A DNA stretch of 64,000 nucleotides from Bryobacter sp. (GTDB taxonomy: Bacteria > Acidobacteriota > Terriglobia > Bryobacterales > Bryobacteraceae): assembly GCA_022843625.1 (NCBI GenBank), contig JALHNH010000033.1:1-64000 (forward strand). The letters are read 5' to 3'. A program made the position numbers and the translations under genes. The notes below the pieces were generated by a model. It did no database searches and was not told the DNA's origin. It was given only the letters and a program-made list of their open reading frames with translations. Below, one piece after another: positions 1,447 through 22,534 of the stretch (position 1 is its first letter; each line of letters begins with the position of its first letter).

Positions 1447-2612
1447 TCGAGAATCGCGCCGTACGCCATATTGACGAAAGCATTGCGCTCCTCAGACCCG
1501 CCTTCCCGGTGGATCATGAAGATCCCAATCATGTCGCGCTTGGGATCGATAAAACAATAAGTGCCATAGCGTCCGCCGTGTCCATACGTACCTTCAGACA
1601 GCGGAGCAGCAGCAGAATCACGCGCTACGGCCCACGCCAGCCCATAACCCATTCCCGGCCCGTTGGTCGACAGCATCCCGGTATGCACCTTCGTCATCGT
1701 TTCTATCGAATGTCGTGACAGAATGCGCTGCCCGTTGAGCTGGCCTCCATTGAGAAGCATCTGATAGAGCAGAAACAAATCGCTGGCCGTCGAATAGAGG
1801 CCGCCTTCGGGCAGCGGGTATTTTGCTCCATCGCGAAACTTCATCGCGCCCTCACCCAGAGGGTCTGAGCTGTACTTCAGCGGCTTGCCCTCTGTGAGGA
1901 TATAAGCCGTAGGCATGCGGTTCCACTTCTCTTTCGGCGGATAGATGTAGGTGTCTTTCATCCCCAGTGGAGTGAAGATCCGTGCCTCGAGAAACTTCTC
2001 AAACGGCATGCCCCCTAGCACCTCAACGATACGCGCCAGCGTCGCAATGCCGGCATTGCTGTATTGCCACTTCGAGCCTGGCTCAAACTGAATCGGCGTT
2101 TGCGAGTAGATCAGCACCACCTCAGATAGCGTCTTGTGCAGCGCCCCATGCAGCTCGCCAATCCCGGCTGGAGGGTTCAGCACCATGCCCGAGGTATGGG
2201 TCATCAGATCACGAATCGTGATCAGCCGCGCCGGCTTCCTTAAGTTGCTGCCTTCAAGCAACATCAGCCCACGAAACTCCGGCAAATGCTTCTCAACAGG
2301 GTCCAGGATCGAGAGCTTACCTTCCTCAGCCAGCATCATTGCGGCCATGGCCACCACGGGCTTGGTCATCGAATGCAGTTGAAAGATGGCATCAGTTCGG
2401 ATCGGCTGTTTCGATTCGATATCGGTATAGCCAGCCGCATCAAGTGCGGCGATCTTGCCGTGCCGTGCCACTAGCGTCACGGTTCCCGCCATCGTACCAG
2501 CGTCGACAAAACTCTTCATCCGCACCGGAATCTTGGCCAACCGGGCCGGATCAAGGCCCGTCTGGGCCACCAGCACGAATCCACTACAAAGGAGAATCAG
2601 CAATCGAAACAT
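1443..2612 (-). CDS. Secreted serine hydrolase, beta-lactamase class C/esterase family
   Basis: A 389-residue protein with a Sec signal peptide (MFRLLILLCSGFVLVAQ). The beta-lactamase/penicillin-binding fold motifs are all present: SMTK at 81-84 (catalytic Ser81, Lys84), YSN at 183-185 and HGG at 344-346. The HGG third motif is more typical of esterases and D-aminopeptidase-like members than of true AmpC enzymes, so an esterase or peptidase role is more likely than antibiotic resistance. It converges on the preceding gene with overlapping stop codons. Confidence 0.88.
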   Translation of the reverse strand: MFRLLILLCSGFVLVAQTGLDPARLAKIPVRMKSFVDAGTMAGTVTLVARHGKIAALDAAGYTDIESKQPIRTDAIFQLHSMTKPVVAMAAMMLAEEGKLSILDPVEKHLPEFRGLMLLEGSNLRKPARLITIRDLMTHTSGMVLNPPAGIGELHGALHKTLSEVVLIYSQTPIQFEPGSKWQYSNAGIATLARIVEVLGGMPFEKFLEARIFTPLGMKDTYIYPPKEKWNRMPTAYILTEGKPLKYSSDPLGEGAMKFRDGAKYPLPEGGLYSTASDLFLLYQMLLNGGQLNGQRILSRHSIETMTKVHTGMLSTNGPGMGYGLAWAVARDSAAAPLSEGTYGHGGRYGTYCFIDPKRDMIGIFMIHREGGSEERNAFVNMAYGAILD

Positions 2613-2699
2613 CCCTGCATTCTATCGATTACCAATCGAATCGAGAGACGCCCCATTGATATTTGGCGGATATAGGAGTAGAGTCACGCTACCGTTTGT

Positions 2700-4982
2700 A
2701 TGAAGACCTTAAAGGTATCGCTGACACTCCTGGCCGTCCAGGCTCTGTCACTCCAGCTCTTCTGCCAGACTTCTCCGAGCTCCCAGCTTCCTCCGGCCGC
2801 AAAGATCCAAGTCGACTTTAACCAGCACATCCAACCCCTCCTTGCAGCGAAGTGTTTCTCCTGCCACGGAGGCGAAGTAACCCAGGGCGGCCTGCGCCTC
2901 GACCGTCGCCAGCAAGCGATGCGCGGCGGCGATTACGGGCCCGTGATTATTGCCGGCGATAGCGCCCAAAGCAAGCTCATCAAGCGAGTTTTTAACGGTG
3001 ATGGCGGCTTGCGCATGCCACCCACTGAGGCCTTGTCCGACGATGAGATCAGTCTGCTGCGAGCTTGGATTGACCAGGGTGCCGACTACCGCATCGAAGT
3101 GAAGGAAGACCTAGCTCCGAAGGCAATCGCTCCGGGCGTTGCAGCCTTCTTCAGCGCGATCCGGAACCGTGACGATAAAGCAGTTGCAGCTATGATTGCG
3201 GCCGATCCCAAACTGATCGATGCGCGCGATCTGGCAAACTCGACTCCGCTCCACATCGCTGCCGCATACGGAACCATTGCCACCATGAAAACCCTCCTCG
3301 ACAAGAGTGCAGACGTAAACGCGAAGAATCGTCGCAAATCGACTCCTCTTGCCTGGGCTCTCCATGACGAAGCCCGCGTGAAGTTGCTGCTCACTCATGG
3401 CGCAGACGTGAATGCTCGCCTGGTGGACGGCACACCAATACTGCGACAGGCTGCCATGCTGGGCAACAGCAACCGGGTTCTCCAGTTACTGCTCGACAAG
3501 AATGCCGACCCGAACATTGGCACTGCCACAGGTCTTACGCCATTGATGGCCGCCGCCAATCGCGGCAACGTCGAGGCAATGCAGATGCTGCTCGCCAAAG
3601 GAGCAAAGGCTGATGCGAAGAACGCTGCTGGCTCTTCCGCACTTGTTTTTGCAGCCGGGAGTGGCCAGCCAGCCGCTGTAAAGCTTCTTCTCGAAAAAGG
3701 AGCCGACCCGAATACAAAAACCAAGCGTGGCGAAACGGCCCTCAATGCCGCCGCGACGCAGGGTGTCGAAGAGAGCGTGCGCCTCCTGATTGCCCGCGGA
3801 GCCAAAGTGAACACCCAGGATGAGCGCGGCTATTCGCCACTCATGCACGCTGCATCATCCGACGCAGTACCTGTTGGTACAGTGAAGCTTCTTCTCGCCA
3901 GCGGTGCAGATGCCAAGCTCACGGCAGAGTATGAAAGCACGGCCGCCGCGCTTGCCGCCAAGCGCGGTGATACGGAAATCGCCCGGCTGCTTGGCGTTGC
4001 TGAGACCGTGCGACTGATCGTAACCCCAGTCAGTGATGTGAAGTCCTTAAGCCCTTCGCAGGCAGTGCAGAAAGCACTTCCTCAACTCGAGAAGCAAAGC
4101 TACAACTTCATCCGCATCGGTGGGTGTAATTCCTGCCACGCCCAGGACCTCGCATCGGCAGCCGCTGGTCTGGCAAGAGCCCGTTCGATCCCGGCTCCCA
4201 AAGAGATCCCGCAGTTGACTGGAGCCATGACAGGCATTTCGGCCGAGCGCATTCTCGACCTGGGAGTTGTTGGAGTGGTCGGTATGGCATGGGAACTCTT
4301 TGATCTCGGTATGAACCAGCAGCCGAAGACCCCTTACACCGATGCCGTAGTCCATTACATTCGCGCGATGCAAGCGGAAGACGGACACTGGAAGAGCGGT
4401 CAGAGCCGCCGGCCACCGATGACCAATGGCGACATGCAGACCGCCGCGCTATCCATCTACTCGCTCAAGAACTATACGCCCGCGGCCAGCCGTGCTGAAT
4501 CGGAACACGCGATCAGCAAAGCCAGAACATGGCTTGAGCGCCAATCACCAACAAATTCACAAGATCGTGCCTTCCATCTGATGGGTTTGGTTTGGTCAAA
4601 TGCCTCAGAGGATTCGATCTCCCGTGCGACAAAGGCCCTGACGGAATCACAACGGCCTGAAGGTGGTTGGGCACAGTTGCCGAATATGGGCAGCGATGCC
4701 TACGCAACCGGCGAGGCTCTCTATGCGCTGCACACTGCGGGTGTCTCTACCCACAGCCCTGTGTACCGCAAAGGCATCTCCTATCTATTGCGGACGCAGG
4801 CAAGCGACGGAACCTGGCACGTCAAGACCAGAGCCATCTGGCTGCAGCCCTACTTTGAAAGTGGCTTCCCCTACGGCACCGATCAATTCATCTCCGCTGC
4901 TGGAACTGCCTGGGCCTCGATTGCGCTGTCCCTGGCCGTCGATCCTGCATCGGCAACATCGACCATCGCCCGGAATCAATAG
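2700..4982 (+). CDS. Cytochrome - ankyrin repeat - alpha/alpha-barrel fusion protein
   Basis: A 760-residue exported protein built from four parts. After a signal peptide comes a planctomycete-type cytochrome C domain (PSCyt1-like) with CFSCH at 52-56 and the typical MPP at 106-108. Then follow about eight ankyrin repeats (roughly 145-450; repeated units such as TPLHIAAAYG and TPLMAAANRG). A second haem motif, CNSCH, lies near 477-481. The last 200 residues contain repeats such as DGHWKSG, EGGWAQLP and DGTWHVKT that recall the alpha/alpha barrels of squalene cyclases and prenyltransferases. No catalytic DXDD motif is visible, so a binding or redox role is inferred rather than a cyclase. Its stop overlaps the convergent dehydrogenase gene by 7 bases. 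Confidence 0.8.
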   Translation: MKTLKVSLTLLAVQALSLQLFCQTSPSSQLPPAAKIQVDFNQHIQPLLAAKCFSCHGGEVTQGGLRLDRRQQAMRGGDYGPVIIAGDSAQSKLIKRVFNGDGGLRMPPTEALSDDEISLLRAWIDQGADYRIEVKEDLAPKAIAPGVAAFFSAIRNRDDKAVAAMIAADPKLIDARDLANSTPLHIAAAYGTIATMKTLLDKSADVNAKNRRKSTPLAWALHDEARVKLLLTHGADVNARLVDGTPILRQAAMLGNSNRVLQLLLDKNADPNIGTATGLTPLMAAANRGNVEAMQMLLAKGAKADAKNAAGSSALVFAAGSGQPAAVKLLLEKGADPNTKTKRGETALNAAATQGVEESVRLLIARGAKVNTQDERGYSPLMHAASSDAVPVGTVKLLLASGADAKLTAEYESTAAALAAKRGDTEIARLLGVAETVRLIVTPVSDVKSLSPSQAVQKALPQLEKQSYNFIRIGGCNSCHAQDLASAAAGLARARSIPAPKEIPQLTGAMTGISAERILDLGVVGVVGMAWELFDLGMNQQPKTPYTDAVVHYIRAMQAEDGHWKSGQSRRPPMTNGDMQTAALSIYSLKNYTPAASRAESEHAISKARTWLERQSPTNSQDRAFHLMGLVWSNASEDSISRATKALTESQRPEGGWAQLPNMGSDAYATGEALYALHTAGVSTHSPVYRKGISYLLRTQASDGTWHVKTRAIWLQPYFESGFPYGTDQFISAAGTAWASIALSLAVDPASATSTIARNQ

Positions 4983-5842
4983 AAGGCCTTGATGATGGCA
5001 CTGTTGTCCTCGCCTCCCCAGCCCGCTTCGATTGCGCTGCGCAGCAGTTTCTCATGCAGGTCAGTGAGCGGGATCTTGGCGCCATTTGAACCGGCACTCT
5101 GCTGCATCAGGGTGACGTCCTTCCAGTGTTGTGCCAGCCGTGCTTCTGGTTGAAAGTCACCCGATAACATCTTTTGTCCTTTGTTGTCCATCACCCTGGC
5201 GTAGGCCGGGCCTGCCTTGAGAATTTCAAGAGCGCGCTGCGGGTCTACGCCACTTTTGCGTGCGAATTCAAGCCCTTCGGCCAGCACCGCCCGTTGCAAG
5301 CCCAACACCAGATTGAGAACCAGCTTCATTCGACTTCCAGATCCCGTTGCACCGGTGTGAAAGACCTGCCTGCCAAATTGCGCCAACAGATCTCCGGCAG
5401 CGATAAACGCCAATGGCGCGGCGCCGCACAGAACGATAGCATCCCCCGCGGCAATCTGACGGCTTGAACCTCCGAGCGTAGCGTCAAGGTAATGCACATC
5501 TCGGCCTTCCAGCTCTTTGCCCAGCTTCTCAACGATTTCAGGATCGCCGGTCGTAGTATCGAGAATCAGGTCGCCAGCTTTCAAATCCGATGAGATCTGC
5601 TTTAAAGCCTCCTGTACTTCGTTCGTGCCCGGAAGACTGAAAATCACTCGGCGGCACCGTCGTGCGATTTCGATCTCCGAGGCCAAAACCTTTCCCCCGA
5701 TCGATTCAACGCGCAATCTCGCTTCCGGGCTGGGGTCAAAGGCGAAGACACAGAATCCCGCTGCCAACAGACGTTGTGCGAGCGCGGTGCCAACCAGCCC
5801 CGCGCCAAGAAGACCGACGTCTTTGTTCAGGGATTGGGTCAT
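4976..5842 (-). CDS. NAD(P)-dependent beta-hydroxyacid dehydrogenase (3-hydroxyisobutyrate dehydrogenase family)
   Basis: The frame is open further upstream, but the conserved family sequence begins at the ATG at 5842, giving 288 residues. The Rossmann motif GAGLVG is at 13-18, the substrate-binding segment TLGGSSRQIAAGD at about 122-134, and the catalytic lysine is K173 in GSGSRMKLVLN. These enzymes oxidise 3-hydroxy acids or reduce semialdehydes (valine or glyoxylate metabolism); the substrate is not determined here. The start codon lies within CATG at 5840-5843, directly abutting a possible start of the divergent transporter gene. Confidence 0.88.
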   Translation of the reverse strand: MTQSLNKDVGLLGAGLVGTALAQRLLAAGFCVFAFDPSPEARLRVESIGGKVLASEIEIARRCRRVIFSLPGTNEVQEALKQISSDLKAGDLILDTTTGDPEIVEKLGKELEGRDVHYLDATLGGSSRQIAAGDAIVLCGAAPLAFIAAGDLLAQFGRQVFHTGATGSGSRMKLVLNLVLGLQRAVLAEGLEFARKSGVDPQRALEILKAGPAYARVMDNKGQKMLSGDFQPEARLAQHWKDVTLMQQSAGSNGAKIPLTDLHEKLLRSAIEAGWGGEDNSAIIKAFY

Positions 5843-5879
5843 GCAAAGGGAAAGTATCATAACTTGGTTGACGCAGCCA

Positions 5880-7115
5880 ATGCCCAACAAACTCACCCTC
5901 TCACCCTTTGCGCGTGTAGCGGTTCTTATCGCATCTTTTCTGGGCCTGCTATTTGACGGAGTAGAACTCGGCCTGATGCCCATCGCCTCGCTCTCGGTCT
6001 CGAAGAGTTTGCTTGGCGATGCTTTCACGGCAACATCGGGGGGTGACTGGTTTGCCCGCTTCACTGCGTCACTCATGCTTGGGGCAGCTGTCGGCGGCAT
6101 CGCACTCGGCAACCTCGGTGACCGCATTGGCCGTAGCCGGGCCATGGGAATTAGCATCCTCTTTTATTCCGTCTTTGCCGCGCTTGGGGCATTTGTCGAA
6201 ACTCAGGAACAGATGCTTTGGCTCCGCTTTATGGTTGGCCTCGGCGTTGGTGGAATGTGGCCAAACGGTATCGCGCTCGTCTCTGAGTGTTGGCCCTCAG
6301 CCGCAAAACCGCTGGTATCGGGCGTCATGATGGCGGGCCTCAATGCTGGCATTCTACTCTTGTCGCAATTAGCACGAATCTGGCCGATCACGCCCGATTC
6401 ATGGCGATGGATTTTCCAACTCTCAGGAGTACCTGCACTACTCGGAATCATAATTCTTGCGGCATTGCCTGAATCGCCAGAATGGCTCGCCTCACGAGGC
6501 CAGAGCCGCAAAGCCGTCGCCCCGCTTGCCGATCTATTCAAGCCCAATCTTCTTCGAACCACCCTCTCGGCAATCGTTGTCAGTGTGATTCCTCTGATGG
6601 GGGCCTGGGCAGCCAGCAAGTGGATGATCCCATGGGCGGACAAAGTGGCGGGTGCAGGAAACGTGCAATACAAAGCTGCCACTCAAGGCTGGTGGGCACT
6701 GGGAGCAATCATTGGTGCCATCGCAGGCGCAGAACTGGCAAGCCGCCTGGGACGCCGGTACAGCTATTTGTGGATCAGCATCGGTGCTACCGTCCTGACT
6801 GTTTCGATGTTTACGCTCACTGCGCCACTAGAGCCAGCCTTCCATTACGTAGTCTTCGCTCAAGGCACTGTGGCAACGCTCTTCTTCGGTTGGCTGGCGC
6901 TCTACTTGCCAGAGATTTTTCCGGTGCAGGTGCGAGCCACGGGTAGTGGCCTCGCCTACAACTTTGGCCGCTTCGGAACCGCAATTGGAGTCTTGGCTGC
7001 TGGCTTCCTCTTCAGCGCGTTGGGCGGGGACTACCCGAGAGTGGGAGCGATATGCGCACTGGTCTACGGGCTCGGCATCTTTGCCATCTTCCTGGTCCGC
7101 AATGCCGAAAAATGA
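5880..7115 (+). CDS. MFS transporter (sugar/acid type)
   Basis: A 411-residue membrane protein with about 12 predicted helices. The cytoplasmic loop motif GNLGDRIGRSRAMG, characteristic of the major facilitator superfamily, follows helix 2 and has a weaker counterpart (SRLGRRYSYL) in the second half. LPEIFPVQVRATGSG resembles the sugar/metabolite:H+ symporter branch. I chose the ATG at 5880, just before the first hydrophobic helix; an in-frame ATG at 5841 would add 13 residues and overlap the divergent gene's start. The neighbouring dehydrogenase suggests a hydroxyacid as cargo, but that is only inference. Confidence 0.85.
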   Translation: MPNKLTLSPFARVAVLIASFLGLLFDGVELGLMPIASLSVSKSLLGDAFTATSGGDWFARFTASLMLGAAVGGIALGNLGDRIGRSRAMGISILFYSVFAALGAFVETQEQMLWLRFMVGLGVGGMWPNGIALVSECWPSAAKPLVSGVMMAGLNAGILLLSQLARIWPITPDSWRWIFQLSGVPALLGIIILAALPESPEWLASRGQSRKAVAPLADLFKPNLLRTTLSAIVVSVIPLMGAWAASKWMIPWADKVAGAGNVQYKAATQGWWALGAIIGAIAGAELASRLGRRYSYLWISIGATVLTVSMFTLTAPLEPAFHYVVFAQGTVATLFFGWLALYLPEIFPVQVRATGSGLAYNFGRFGTAIGVLAAGFLFSALGGDYPRVGAICALVYGLGIFAIFLVRNAEK

Positions 7116-20297: not shown

Positions 20298-21308
20298 TTA
20301 GAGCTCGGCCAGCGCTGCCACAAGTGCACCCTTCGCTGTCGAGTTGAGCGGCGTTTCCGCCATCCGAATCTCGCTCAATGGCAGTGGGAACTCAGATTCC
20401 TTGAGCAGCTTCTCAAAGCGGTCACGGAAGCCCTTCGGCATCGCCGTGCCGCCGGAAAGAACCATCGGAATGGGCTTGCCCATCTTCGGAATATTCCGCG
20501 AGTTCGCAAAGGCTTCTTTCAACCCGTTCACCGTAGCCCGGATCACTTCGTCGTAGTAAACGTTGAGCACCTGGTGCAACTTGTCCGCATAGTGGCCGTT
20601 GATCTGGAAGGATTCTTCCTTCGCCAGTCGAATCCGTGTGGTCAGCTCACCGGTAATTGCAGCAGCAGAACTGTCGATGTAATCGCCGCCCTTGCCCACG
20701 CTGAAGCTCAGCACGGGCACAGCCAGATAGCTCAGGCACACATTCACCAGACCACCGCCAAAGCTGATACCGATTCCCGAATAGTTGGTCTCTTCAAGCT
20801 CTGAAAAAACAACTGCCAGGCCCTCATTGATCGGGGTGGGTTCACAATCGAGCTCGCGCAGGATCTGCGCAATCGATGCATCATGGTAGGTGAGATTTTC
20901 TTCTGCGCCGAGCGGCGCGGCCGGGACGCTGTAGTACACCGGCAAACCTTGCCGTCGTTCGCCTTCGGTCAGATTCTCAATCAGTTGCTTCAGCATTGCC
21001 GCATTTTGCGGCTCGCTCGGATTGAGTACGCCACGATTCATCGGACGCCGTGATTCCGTCTGCAACAGGTCTGCAAATCGCGAACTCTCGTTGCCAGGAA
21101 CGATGATCAACTTGCCCGTGTTCTCACCGGATACGACGTATGGCACGCCTTCGCGCTTGAGTGATGCCTCGGTCATTTTCGACCAGGGCACCTCAACAAA
21201 TGCATTGAGCTGGCTCTTGTATTGGAAATCGTCATTTGCCTTGCTGGCGGCTACGATCCGGCTTGTGCCGACGTCAAGCCCGATAGCAGGAGTGTGGTTG
21301 CTTTTCAT
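20298..21308 (-). CDS. Actin-like ATPase (MreB/FtsA/Hsp70 superfamily), uncharacterised
   Basis: A 336-residue cytoplasmic protein with the three nucleotide-binding signatures of the actin/Hsp70 fold: phosphate-1 GLDVGTSRIVAA (10-21), phosphate-2 GIGISFGGGLVNVCL (178-192) and adenosine motif VLSGGTAMP (283-291). The stretch NEGLAVVFSEL (161-171) fits the interdomain segment. It is not a normal MreB or FtsA by sequence, and it is encoded behind a cell-wall amidase gene with a 4-base ATGA overlap at 21305-21308. A good ribosome-binding site (AGAGGTG) precedes the start. A filament-forming or regulatory role at the envelope is inferred from context only. Confidence 0.75.
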   Translation of the reverse strand: MKSNHTPAIGLDVGTSRIVAASKANDDFQYKSQLNAFVEVPWSKMTEASLKREGVPYVVSGENTGKLIIVPGNESSRFADLLQTESRRPMNRGVLNPSEPQNAAMLKQLIENLTEGERRQGLPVYYSVPAAPLGAEENLTYHDASIAQILRELDCEPTPINEGLAVVFSELEETNYSGIGISFGGGLVNVCLSYLAVPVLSFSVGKGGDYIDSSAAAITGELTTRIRLAKEESFQINGHYADKLHQVLNVYYDEVIRATVNGLKEAFANSRNIPKMGKPIPMVLSGGTAMPKGFRDRFEKLLKESEFPLPLSEIRMAETPLNSTAKGALVAALAEL

Positions 21309-22534
21309 GGGTTCACCTCTTGAGCTGTGCTCGAATTGGAATTTGGGTTGCCACCGCTGGACCTGTTGTTCTCTGGCAACAAAGCACTCAGGCGGCGGTA
21401 ATGGTTGCGCAATTGGGTACGTAGTTGCGCAACAGAAATAGAATTCTCTCTCGCCTGCTCTCGAAGCAGGTCTTCACTGCTGACGACGCCCTTCCACATG
21501 CGCGCCCCGGTGGCTGCAAAAAAGGTGCCGTCGTAATTAAAGCCAAAAAGATTGAGACTCGCAAGGGGTTGTAAATAATTATCAGGCAGACCCATGGCCT
21601 CAAAAGGAAAATTGCCAGCCCAATCGGTGTGATATCCAATCTGGAAGTTGCTCGGATTGATCGACACCTGCGCATGCGTCACGCAGTTTGCCGCTGGAAT
21701 GTTGTATCTCGAACGCAGCATGCGAGTCAGTGTTCTGCCGGAATCGATCTGCGCCTGCGAAATGATCGGCGCCTCATCCCCAGGCCGCGTTTGCGTCTCA
21801 AACGAGACGGCAAGGAAGGAATCGTTCAACCCGATGTAAGCCCACTTGTCGTCCGCCCAGGTCGACTTGCCGGCATGATTGGCTGCATCCGTTTCTTTCA
21901 CAATCCTAAAGACCCGGCCAAATCGATCAATCACGTAGTGATAGGCCTTTTCTTTCGATACATATTGCAGAAGAGATTCCCCAAGCAGTTTGAGCCGCCG
22001 CATCTTCTGTTCTTCGAGTTCTTCGAGCGTGCTCTCCGTTGTATGAAAGACAATACCTGCCGCCTGCTTGTCGGCCAACTGCACCAGGCTCGATGTTGGT
22101 TGATTGCGGTTCCAGGCAAAATAATCACGGGGCCGGTTTGTCGTGCTGAAGCGCGTTTCAATGTGTAAGCCGTTCGACCAGGTTTCCACCCCATTCTTCG
22201 AATCAATCAGCCATACCTTCTCGAGAGGCCCCTCACGGAAAGGCTTTGAGCCGCGGCCAGCCACCAGATTCATCGCCCCATCCGAAACAGAAATGGGTGG
22301 TGCACTACTACGGAATAGGGAGAGAGTTGGAATCATCAACAGGCAACCCAAAGCCAGCCAAAACTTCTTATTGCGCAACCACCAGTACTGTGGCCGCCCC
22401 AGCACCGTTTCCACTTGACCCACCCGCTTTTCTGTATTCTTCAAAAAACGCAGTTTCGCAACCGGGTCTTCGATCTTTGAAGCCCGCGCATCGATCATCG
22501 GATTCAAGACCTTGCGTGGAGTAATTGGGTTCAA
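21305..22534 (-). CDS. Membrane-anchored N-acetylmuramoyl-L-alanine amidase (amidase_2/PGRP type)
   Basis: A 409-residue protein with one membrane segment (about 58-74), a low-complexity linker and an amidase_2-like domain. Zinc and catalytic candidates are H164 in VFHTTES, H199 in HYVIDRFGRVFRI, H220 in NHAGKS and H287 in CVTHAQV. The C-terminus is rich in Asn/Ser. The start is taken as TTG at 22534, preceded by AGGA; an ATG at 22498 is the alternative. It would cut the lactyl-amide bond of peptidoglycan on the outer face of the inner membrane. It shares an operon with the actin-like ATPase gene. Confidence 0.75.
   Translation of the reverse strand: MNPITPRKVLNPMIDARASKIEDPVAKLRFLKNTEKRVGQVETVLGRPQYWWLRNKKFWLALGCLLMIPTLSLFRSSAPPISVSDGAMNLVAGRGSKPFREGPLEKVWLIDSKNGVETWSNGLHIETRFSTTNRPRDYFAWNRNQPTSSLVQLADKQAAGIVFHTTESTLEELEEQKMRRLKLLGESLLQYVSKEKAYHYVIDRFGRVFRIVKETDAANHAGKSTWADDKWAYIGLNDSFLAVSFETQTRPGDEAPIISQAQIDSGRTLTRMLRSRYNIPAANCVTHAQVSINPSNFQIGYHTDWAGNFPFEAMGLPDNYLQPLASLNLFGFNYDGTFFAATGARMWKGVVSSEDLLREQARENSISVAQLRTQLRNHYRRLSALLPENNRSSGGNPNSNSSTAQEVNP

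Follow-up and report, generated by a model that had tools for sequence, protein, structure and literature searches.

A volactin-family actin homologue is encoded with a predicted membrane-anchored peptidoglycan amidase in Bryobacter and other Acidobacteriota

Only one member of the volactin family has been studied experimentally, that of Haloferax volcanii (HVO_2015), which forms dynamic filaments whose tips touch the membrane and has a role in cell shape (PMC10869688). Elsewhere, cytoplasmic actin-fold proteins are known to bind the cytoplasmic tail of a bitopic partner, as FtsA does with FtsN and PilM with PilN (PMC7613929). The bacterial actins known to date place wall synthesis, in the case of MreB, or the divisome, in the case of FtsA. 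Among peptidoglycan amidases of the AmpD type, AmpD itself is cytoplasmic, whereas AmiD and AmpDh2 occur as lipoproteins or in the periplasm.

Here, we describe a two-gene unit from a 64,000-nucleotide stretch of a Bryobacter genome, referred to below as the window, in which a putative amidase gene lies upstream of a gene encoding an actin-like ATPase, the pair spanning 22534 to 20298 on the minus strand (Table 1). The first-pass annotation had taken the two genes for an operon with overlapping stop and start codons. Both open reading frames and the ATGA overlap are indeed present, and conservation of the pair across eight families argues that the unit is genuine. A spacing of -4 is also the commonest arrangement, found in 22 of 84 volactin loci, and the overlap probably couples translation such that the two proteins are made together.

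Table 1. Features of the amidase-volactin unit in the window
Feature	Position	Strand	Remarks
Amidase gene (gene 1)	21305..22534	-	409 aa, TTG start
Tail motif (ARASKIEDPVAKLRFLKNTE region), amidase residues 16-35	22430..22489	-	Proposed volactin handle; matches motif in 71/73 homologues
Transmembrane helix, amidase residues about 58-76	22307..22363	-	Predicted by hydropathy and charge scan, 73 homologues; N-terminus cytoplasmic by the positive-inside rule
Catalytic domain (predicted periplasmic), amidase residues 157-320	21575..22066	-	H164, H287, D304 (putative zinc ligands), E246, H302
ATGA shared by the end of the amidase gene and the start of volactin	21305..21308	-	4 bases; sequence
Volactin gene (gene 2)	20298..21308	-	336 aa, ATG start
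Phosphate-1 loop GLDVGTSR, volactin residues 10-17	21258..21281	-	D12, G14, T15 invariant
Phosphate-2 loop GIGISFGGGLVN, volactin residues 178-189	20742..20777	-	Ser182 replaces Asp and does not vary among acidobacterial, archaeal or phage volactins
Adenosine motif LSGGTA, volactin residues 284-289	20442..20459	-	G286, G287 invariant

The ATPase had been described as an actin-fold protein unlike ordinary MreB, FtsA, ParM or DnaK in sequence, in a system without a known name. The protein does belong to a named family, Volactin (PF25216; PMC10869688), the Pfam family of HVO_2015, matching positions 2-321 of the 321-position profile with 263 bits against a cut-off of 35 (E 6e-78). Its dissimilarity in sequence to all four was borne out: for MreB, the NCBIfam model TIGR00904 gave 17.1 bits against a cut-off of 365.75, and MreB_Mbl was not listed by Pfam at E 10. 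Salactin was likewise rejected, with 15.1 against 27.1 bits for PF25229 and 15.2 against 400 bits for NF053533. A phmmer search of PDB sequences returned no match even at E 10, and the fold was therefore assessed through an AF2 model (mean pLDDT 92.8, pTM 0.91). According to this model, the gene 2 product is a full actin-fold protein, aligning by VIA with the MamK filament (Z 28.6, 296 residues, rmsd 3.0), the BeeR filament (Z 28.6, 301 residues, rmsd 3.1), MreB (Z 27.0) and actin (Z about 26). A sugar kinase or DnaK fold, the former raised as a possible objection by the first-pass annotation, was rejected, since MamK, BeeR, MreB and actin head both the Foldseek and VIA lists.

All three nucleotide-binding signatures reported for the ATPase are present, as GLDVGTSR (10-17), GISFGGGLVN (180-189) and LSGGT (284-288), and eight loop residues are invariant among 77 aligned acidobacterial volactins (D12, G14, T15, S182, G184, G186, G286 and G287). 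MreB and ParM have an aspartate at the phosphate-2 position occupied here by Ser182. In the alignment, this serine is common to the acidobacterial volactins and their haloarchaeal and phage relatives, and it is therefore a mark of the family; the substitution makes ATP hydrolysis by volactin uncertain. Volactin copies on haloarchaeal plasmids, which are similar to the window protein over the full length (34-36%), share both the serine and the GGT of the adenosine motif. By analogy with the Haloferax protein, the Bryobacter volactin may be expected to form filaments.

The gene 1 product is, as predicted from its sequence, a bitopic N-acetylmuramoyl-L-alanine zinc amidase of the Amidase_2/AmpD-PGRP fold (PF01510, 52.6 bits against a cut-off of 26, E 7.7e-14). 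In its AF2 model (pLDDT 87.8, with values under 50 at residues 69-79 and 87-91), the catalytic part matches LysCS with Z 15.9 and AmpD with Z 15.5. Residues H164, H220, E246, C284, H287, H302 and D304 are invariant among 73 homologues, and H164, H287 and D304 are the probable zinc ligands, zinc and catalytic roles being transferred from homologous amidases of the AmpD type. The four histidines previously singled out as candidates (164, 199, 220 and 287) were correct except for H199, which is not invariant, and that list had missed E246, H302 and D304. A periplasmic amidase with a membrane anchor, as had been supposed, is supported by the Amidase_2 match together with a single predicted helix. 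The enzyme thus resembles AmpD, AmiD and AmpDh2-3 in the fold and residues of its catalytic domain, but differs from them in having an N-in membrane anchor and a conserved motif on the cytoplasmic side.

We then considered how regularly the two genes are inherited together. A search of 237 Bryobacteraceae genomes for the two genes found both in 149, neither in 82 and a single one in 6 (Fisher p 5e-56, a value inflated by kinship, as the genomes are related and not independent). Gains and losses within genera are therefore better evidence, and the pair is present or absent jointly within at least six genera (g2, g121, g131, g156, g160 and g172). The discordant six are mostly fragments. Amidase only was scored in G203, G214, G219 and G612, and volactin only in G221 and G319; the G203 and G221 loci run into contig ends, volactin in G214 is matched only weakly (E 1.2e-5), the amidase match in G612 is weak (E 5e-34), and in G319 all that is left of volactin is a C-terminal piece in the interior of a long contig, with no amidase. 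Across the phylum, an evenly drawn sample of 396 Acidobacteriota genomes contained volactin in 21, with an adjacent amidase in 15, and these 15 pairs come from eight families (f1, f10, f28, f39, f43, f70, f71 and f86; that of G538 was found by tblastn). Homologues of the ATPase are therefore found mostly with the amidase, the first-pass annotation having asked whether they always occur without one. These data provide strong evidence, at the level of sequence, that volactin and the amidase constitute a functional pair. MreB is also encoded in the Bryobacter genome of the window, and in 57 of 61 genomes of the family, and the unit is therefore an addition to MreB, not a replacement for it.

The most distinctive feature of the amidase is the motif ahead of its membrane helix, of the form A-x-x-I-x-D-P-V-x-R-L-R-F-L-R. 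A loose version of this pattern matches 71 of the 73 amidases, compared to 0.09 expected in shuffled sequences. Because the pattern was drawn up after the alignment had been seen, the shuffles exclude only an effect of composition, and the contrast with the surroundings is the stronger point: the mean majority frequency is 0.62 in residues 16-35 and 0.18-0.32 in residues 36-105, the sequence between the motif and the enzyme varying freely. The motif is retained in divergent loci and in distant families. Residues 1-46 are mostly helical in the AF2 model, with high confidence to about residue 40, and the net charge ahead of the helix is mostly positive among the 73 homologues, so that the tail should be cytoplasmic. 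The motif looks like a conserved cytoplasmic handle for the volactin filament, and is a new finding. One locus bears on this idea. In G219, where volactin is gone, the tail pattern is missing in all six frames of the contig while the catalytic domain is intact, although the case comes from one draft genome (87% complete), in which sequencing error is possible. The locus is internal to its contig, with a sulfatase-like gene at the expected position of volactin.

Given the precedents of FtsA-FtsN and PilM-PilN, as well as the membrane-touching tips of Haloferax filaments, the simplest reading of the tail is that volactin grips it, and we have moderate confidence, from sequence conservation, in such docking. 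We accordingly lean towards a model in which volactin polymerises in the cytoplasm and the filament grips the conserved tail motif, while the amidase, spanning the inner membrane once, would release stem peptides from MurNAc on the periplasmic side. In this way the filament would gather and place wall hydrolysis, and perhaps switch it on, the likeliest purpose being to separate daughter cells or to remodel the wall locally; a role in shape or local wall opening may also be envisaged. This arrangement would be comparable to that of FtsA-FtsN and PilM-PilN, in that a cytoplasmic actin-fold protein is paired with a bitopic protein bearing a short N-terminal cytoplasmic tail (PMC7613929), but here the partner is the hydrolase itself, and the closest structural matches of the volactin model are MamK, BeeR and MreB. 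It would likewise resemble the MreB/Rod complex, as an actin filament placing membrane wall enzymes, with the difference that Rod carries out synthesis and the enzyme here is a predicted hydrolase.

The tail could instead bind lipid or another protein, and the two gene products might be co-expressed for a shared wall process without touching, the tail contacting lipid or a third protein such as a divisome component. The richness of the tail in basic residues fits this explanation, as does the gene arrangement, since the genes are divergent in 13 of 84 volactin loci, with a third gene between them in some, and the operon is therefore not universal. On the other hand, co-occurrence of the two genes is near perfect, and in the one case of G219 loss of the motif coincides exactly with loss of volactin. 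We consider partnership without contact unlikely, if plausible enough to be kept in mind alongside direct docking.

The full set of 84 loci shows how the pair varies. The amidase lies directly upstream on the same strand in 59 (57 counted by script, plus L061 and L063, in which trimming to the core domain had removed the volactin start), and it adjoins in divergent orientation in the 13 mentioned above, with the intervening gene, where there is one, encoding a small protein. In ten others the amidase is absent from the neighbourhood stretch, while in L125 it is downstream and in L137 about 1 kb off. No third conserved gene was found family-wide: the small protein, which has no Pfam match, measures ~220-290 aa and looks coiled-coil, is confined to part of the family, where it lies between the divergent genes (L106, L107, L109, L112, L116 and others). 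Separately, a zinc-ribbon-like gene with CPxC motifs lies directly 5' of the amidase in six loci from f10 and f71 (L249, L250, L252, L257, L259 and L063), and in L260 (G148) the amidase is followed by IS21-type istA/istB-like genes at the expected place of volactin.

Volactins of f61, f37 and f78, as well as the paralogues in L118 and L121, have no adjoining amidase, so volactin can serve other partners. In a further case without this amidase (L060, family f63; 2371-6009), the gene that begins 6 bases after volactin encodes a class A penicillin-binding protein, which combines transglycosylase and transpeptidase and has a long N-terminal extension before its membrane segment. This protein is a membrane-anchored wall enzyme, and provides a second link of volactin to wall enzymes. 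The paralogues in L118 and L121 are divergent, and in both loci the gene ahead of volactin matches methyltransferases weakly.

Domain fusions suggest further connections. In f10, f70 and f78, volactin carries an N-terminal HU/IHF domain (PF00216, E 2e-7 to 5e-14), recognised by Pfam in L063, L251, L256, L257 and L259 and by eye in L258; in f10 and f70 the fusion also has a neighbouring amidase. In L062 (3751-6358; f37), a receiver domain is fused ahead of volactin, and a gene for a MinD/ParA-type ATPase follows. In these lineages, the filament is thus joined to DNA binding and signalling, which supports the possibility that DNA is its first cargo. Volactin might then mainly position or segregate DNA, with the amidase tying separation to finished segregation, much as deletion of salactin disturbs DNA distribution (PMC10746226). 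However, the window volactin has no HU domain, ORFs of ~335 aa in most family relatives leave no room for one, and the haloarchaeal volactin affects cell shape (PMC10869688), making a chiefly nucleoid-directed role rather improbable. The receiver fusion also invites a sensory interpretation, in which the amidase domain would report the state of the peptidoglycan and its tail control volactin assembly. PGRP/AmpD folds can act as sensors, and the tail is predicted to face the cytoplasm, but the zinc and catalytic residues are all invariant, as in an active enzyme, and we regard such outside-in signalling as highly improbable. A bolder form of the docking model, which we put forward only tentatively and consider doubtful as a whole, is that at least eight Acidobacteriota families possess an unnamed morphogenesis machine in which volactin directly holds a trans-envelope amidase by its dedicated cytoplasmic motif, and that where HU fusions occur these bind the nucleoid, physically linking chromosome position and wall cleavage.

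While the actin family was known already, its bacterial setting with a wall amidase is new, and no paper on bacterial volactin, the volactin-amidase pair or HU-actin fusions was found among open-licence papers. Volactin had hitherto been studied only in haloarchaea, which have no peptidoglycan and in which such an amidase would be unusable; here it is tied to a predicted wall hydrolase in bacteria, in a large phylum that also has MreB. If docking to the tail holds, wall hydrolysis would be placed by an actin of its own, which is unusual. The two-gene unit, carried by many soil Acidobacteriota, offers a testable way into cell division and shape in this phylum.

Finally, the HU fusions and relatives in huge phages are relevant to the question of how actin families spread and take on different work. 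In contrast with H. volcanii volactin, the acidobacterial proteins, some lineages of which have the HU or receiver fusions, form a bacterial clade of their own (SH-aLRT 95) in a quick tree, apart from the haloarchaeal and most phage sequences, although the tree has a number of long branches with poor resolution, and a single f61 sequence falls among phages. Given this separate clade, and as the amidase is in no viral locus, a phage origin of the bacterial pair was rejected. Volactin relatives with 30-38% identity come from INPHARED (two huge-phage records) and IMG/VR (74 loci), together L147, L148 and L158-L231, on viral contigs of up to 595 kb; no paper on them was found in the open-licence literature. 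Many of the viral volactins lie in a conserved gene row, in which, among the rows tested, some neighbours match virion structural or tail tape-measure families, and one 297 kb viral contig carries two volactin copies (L169 and L198).
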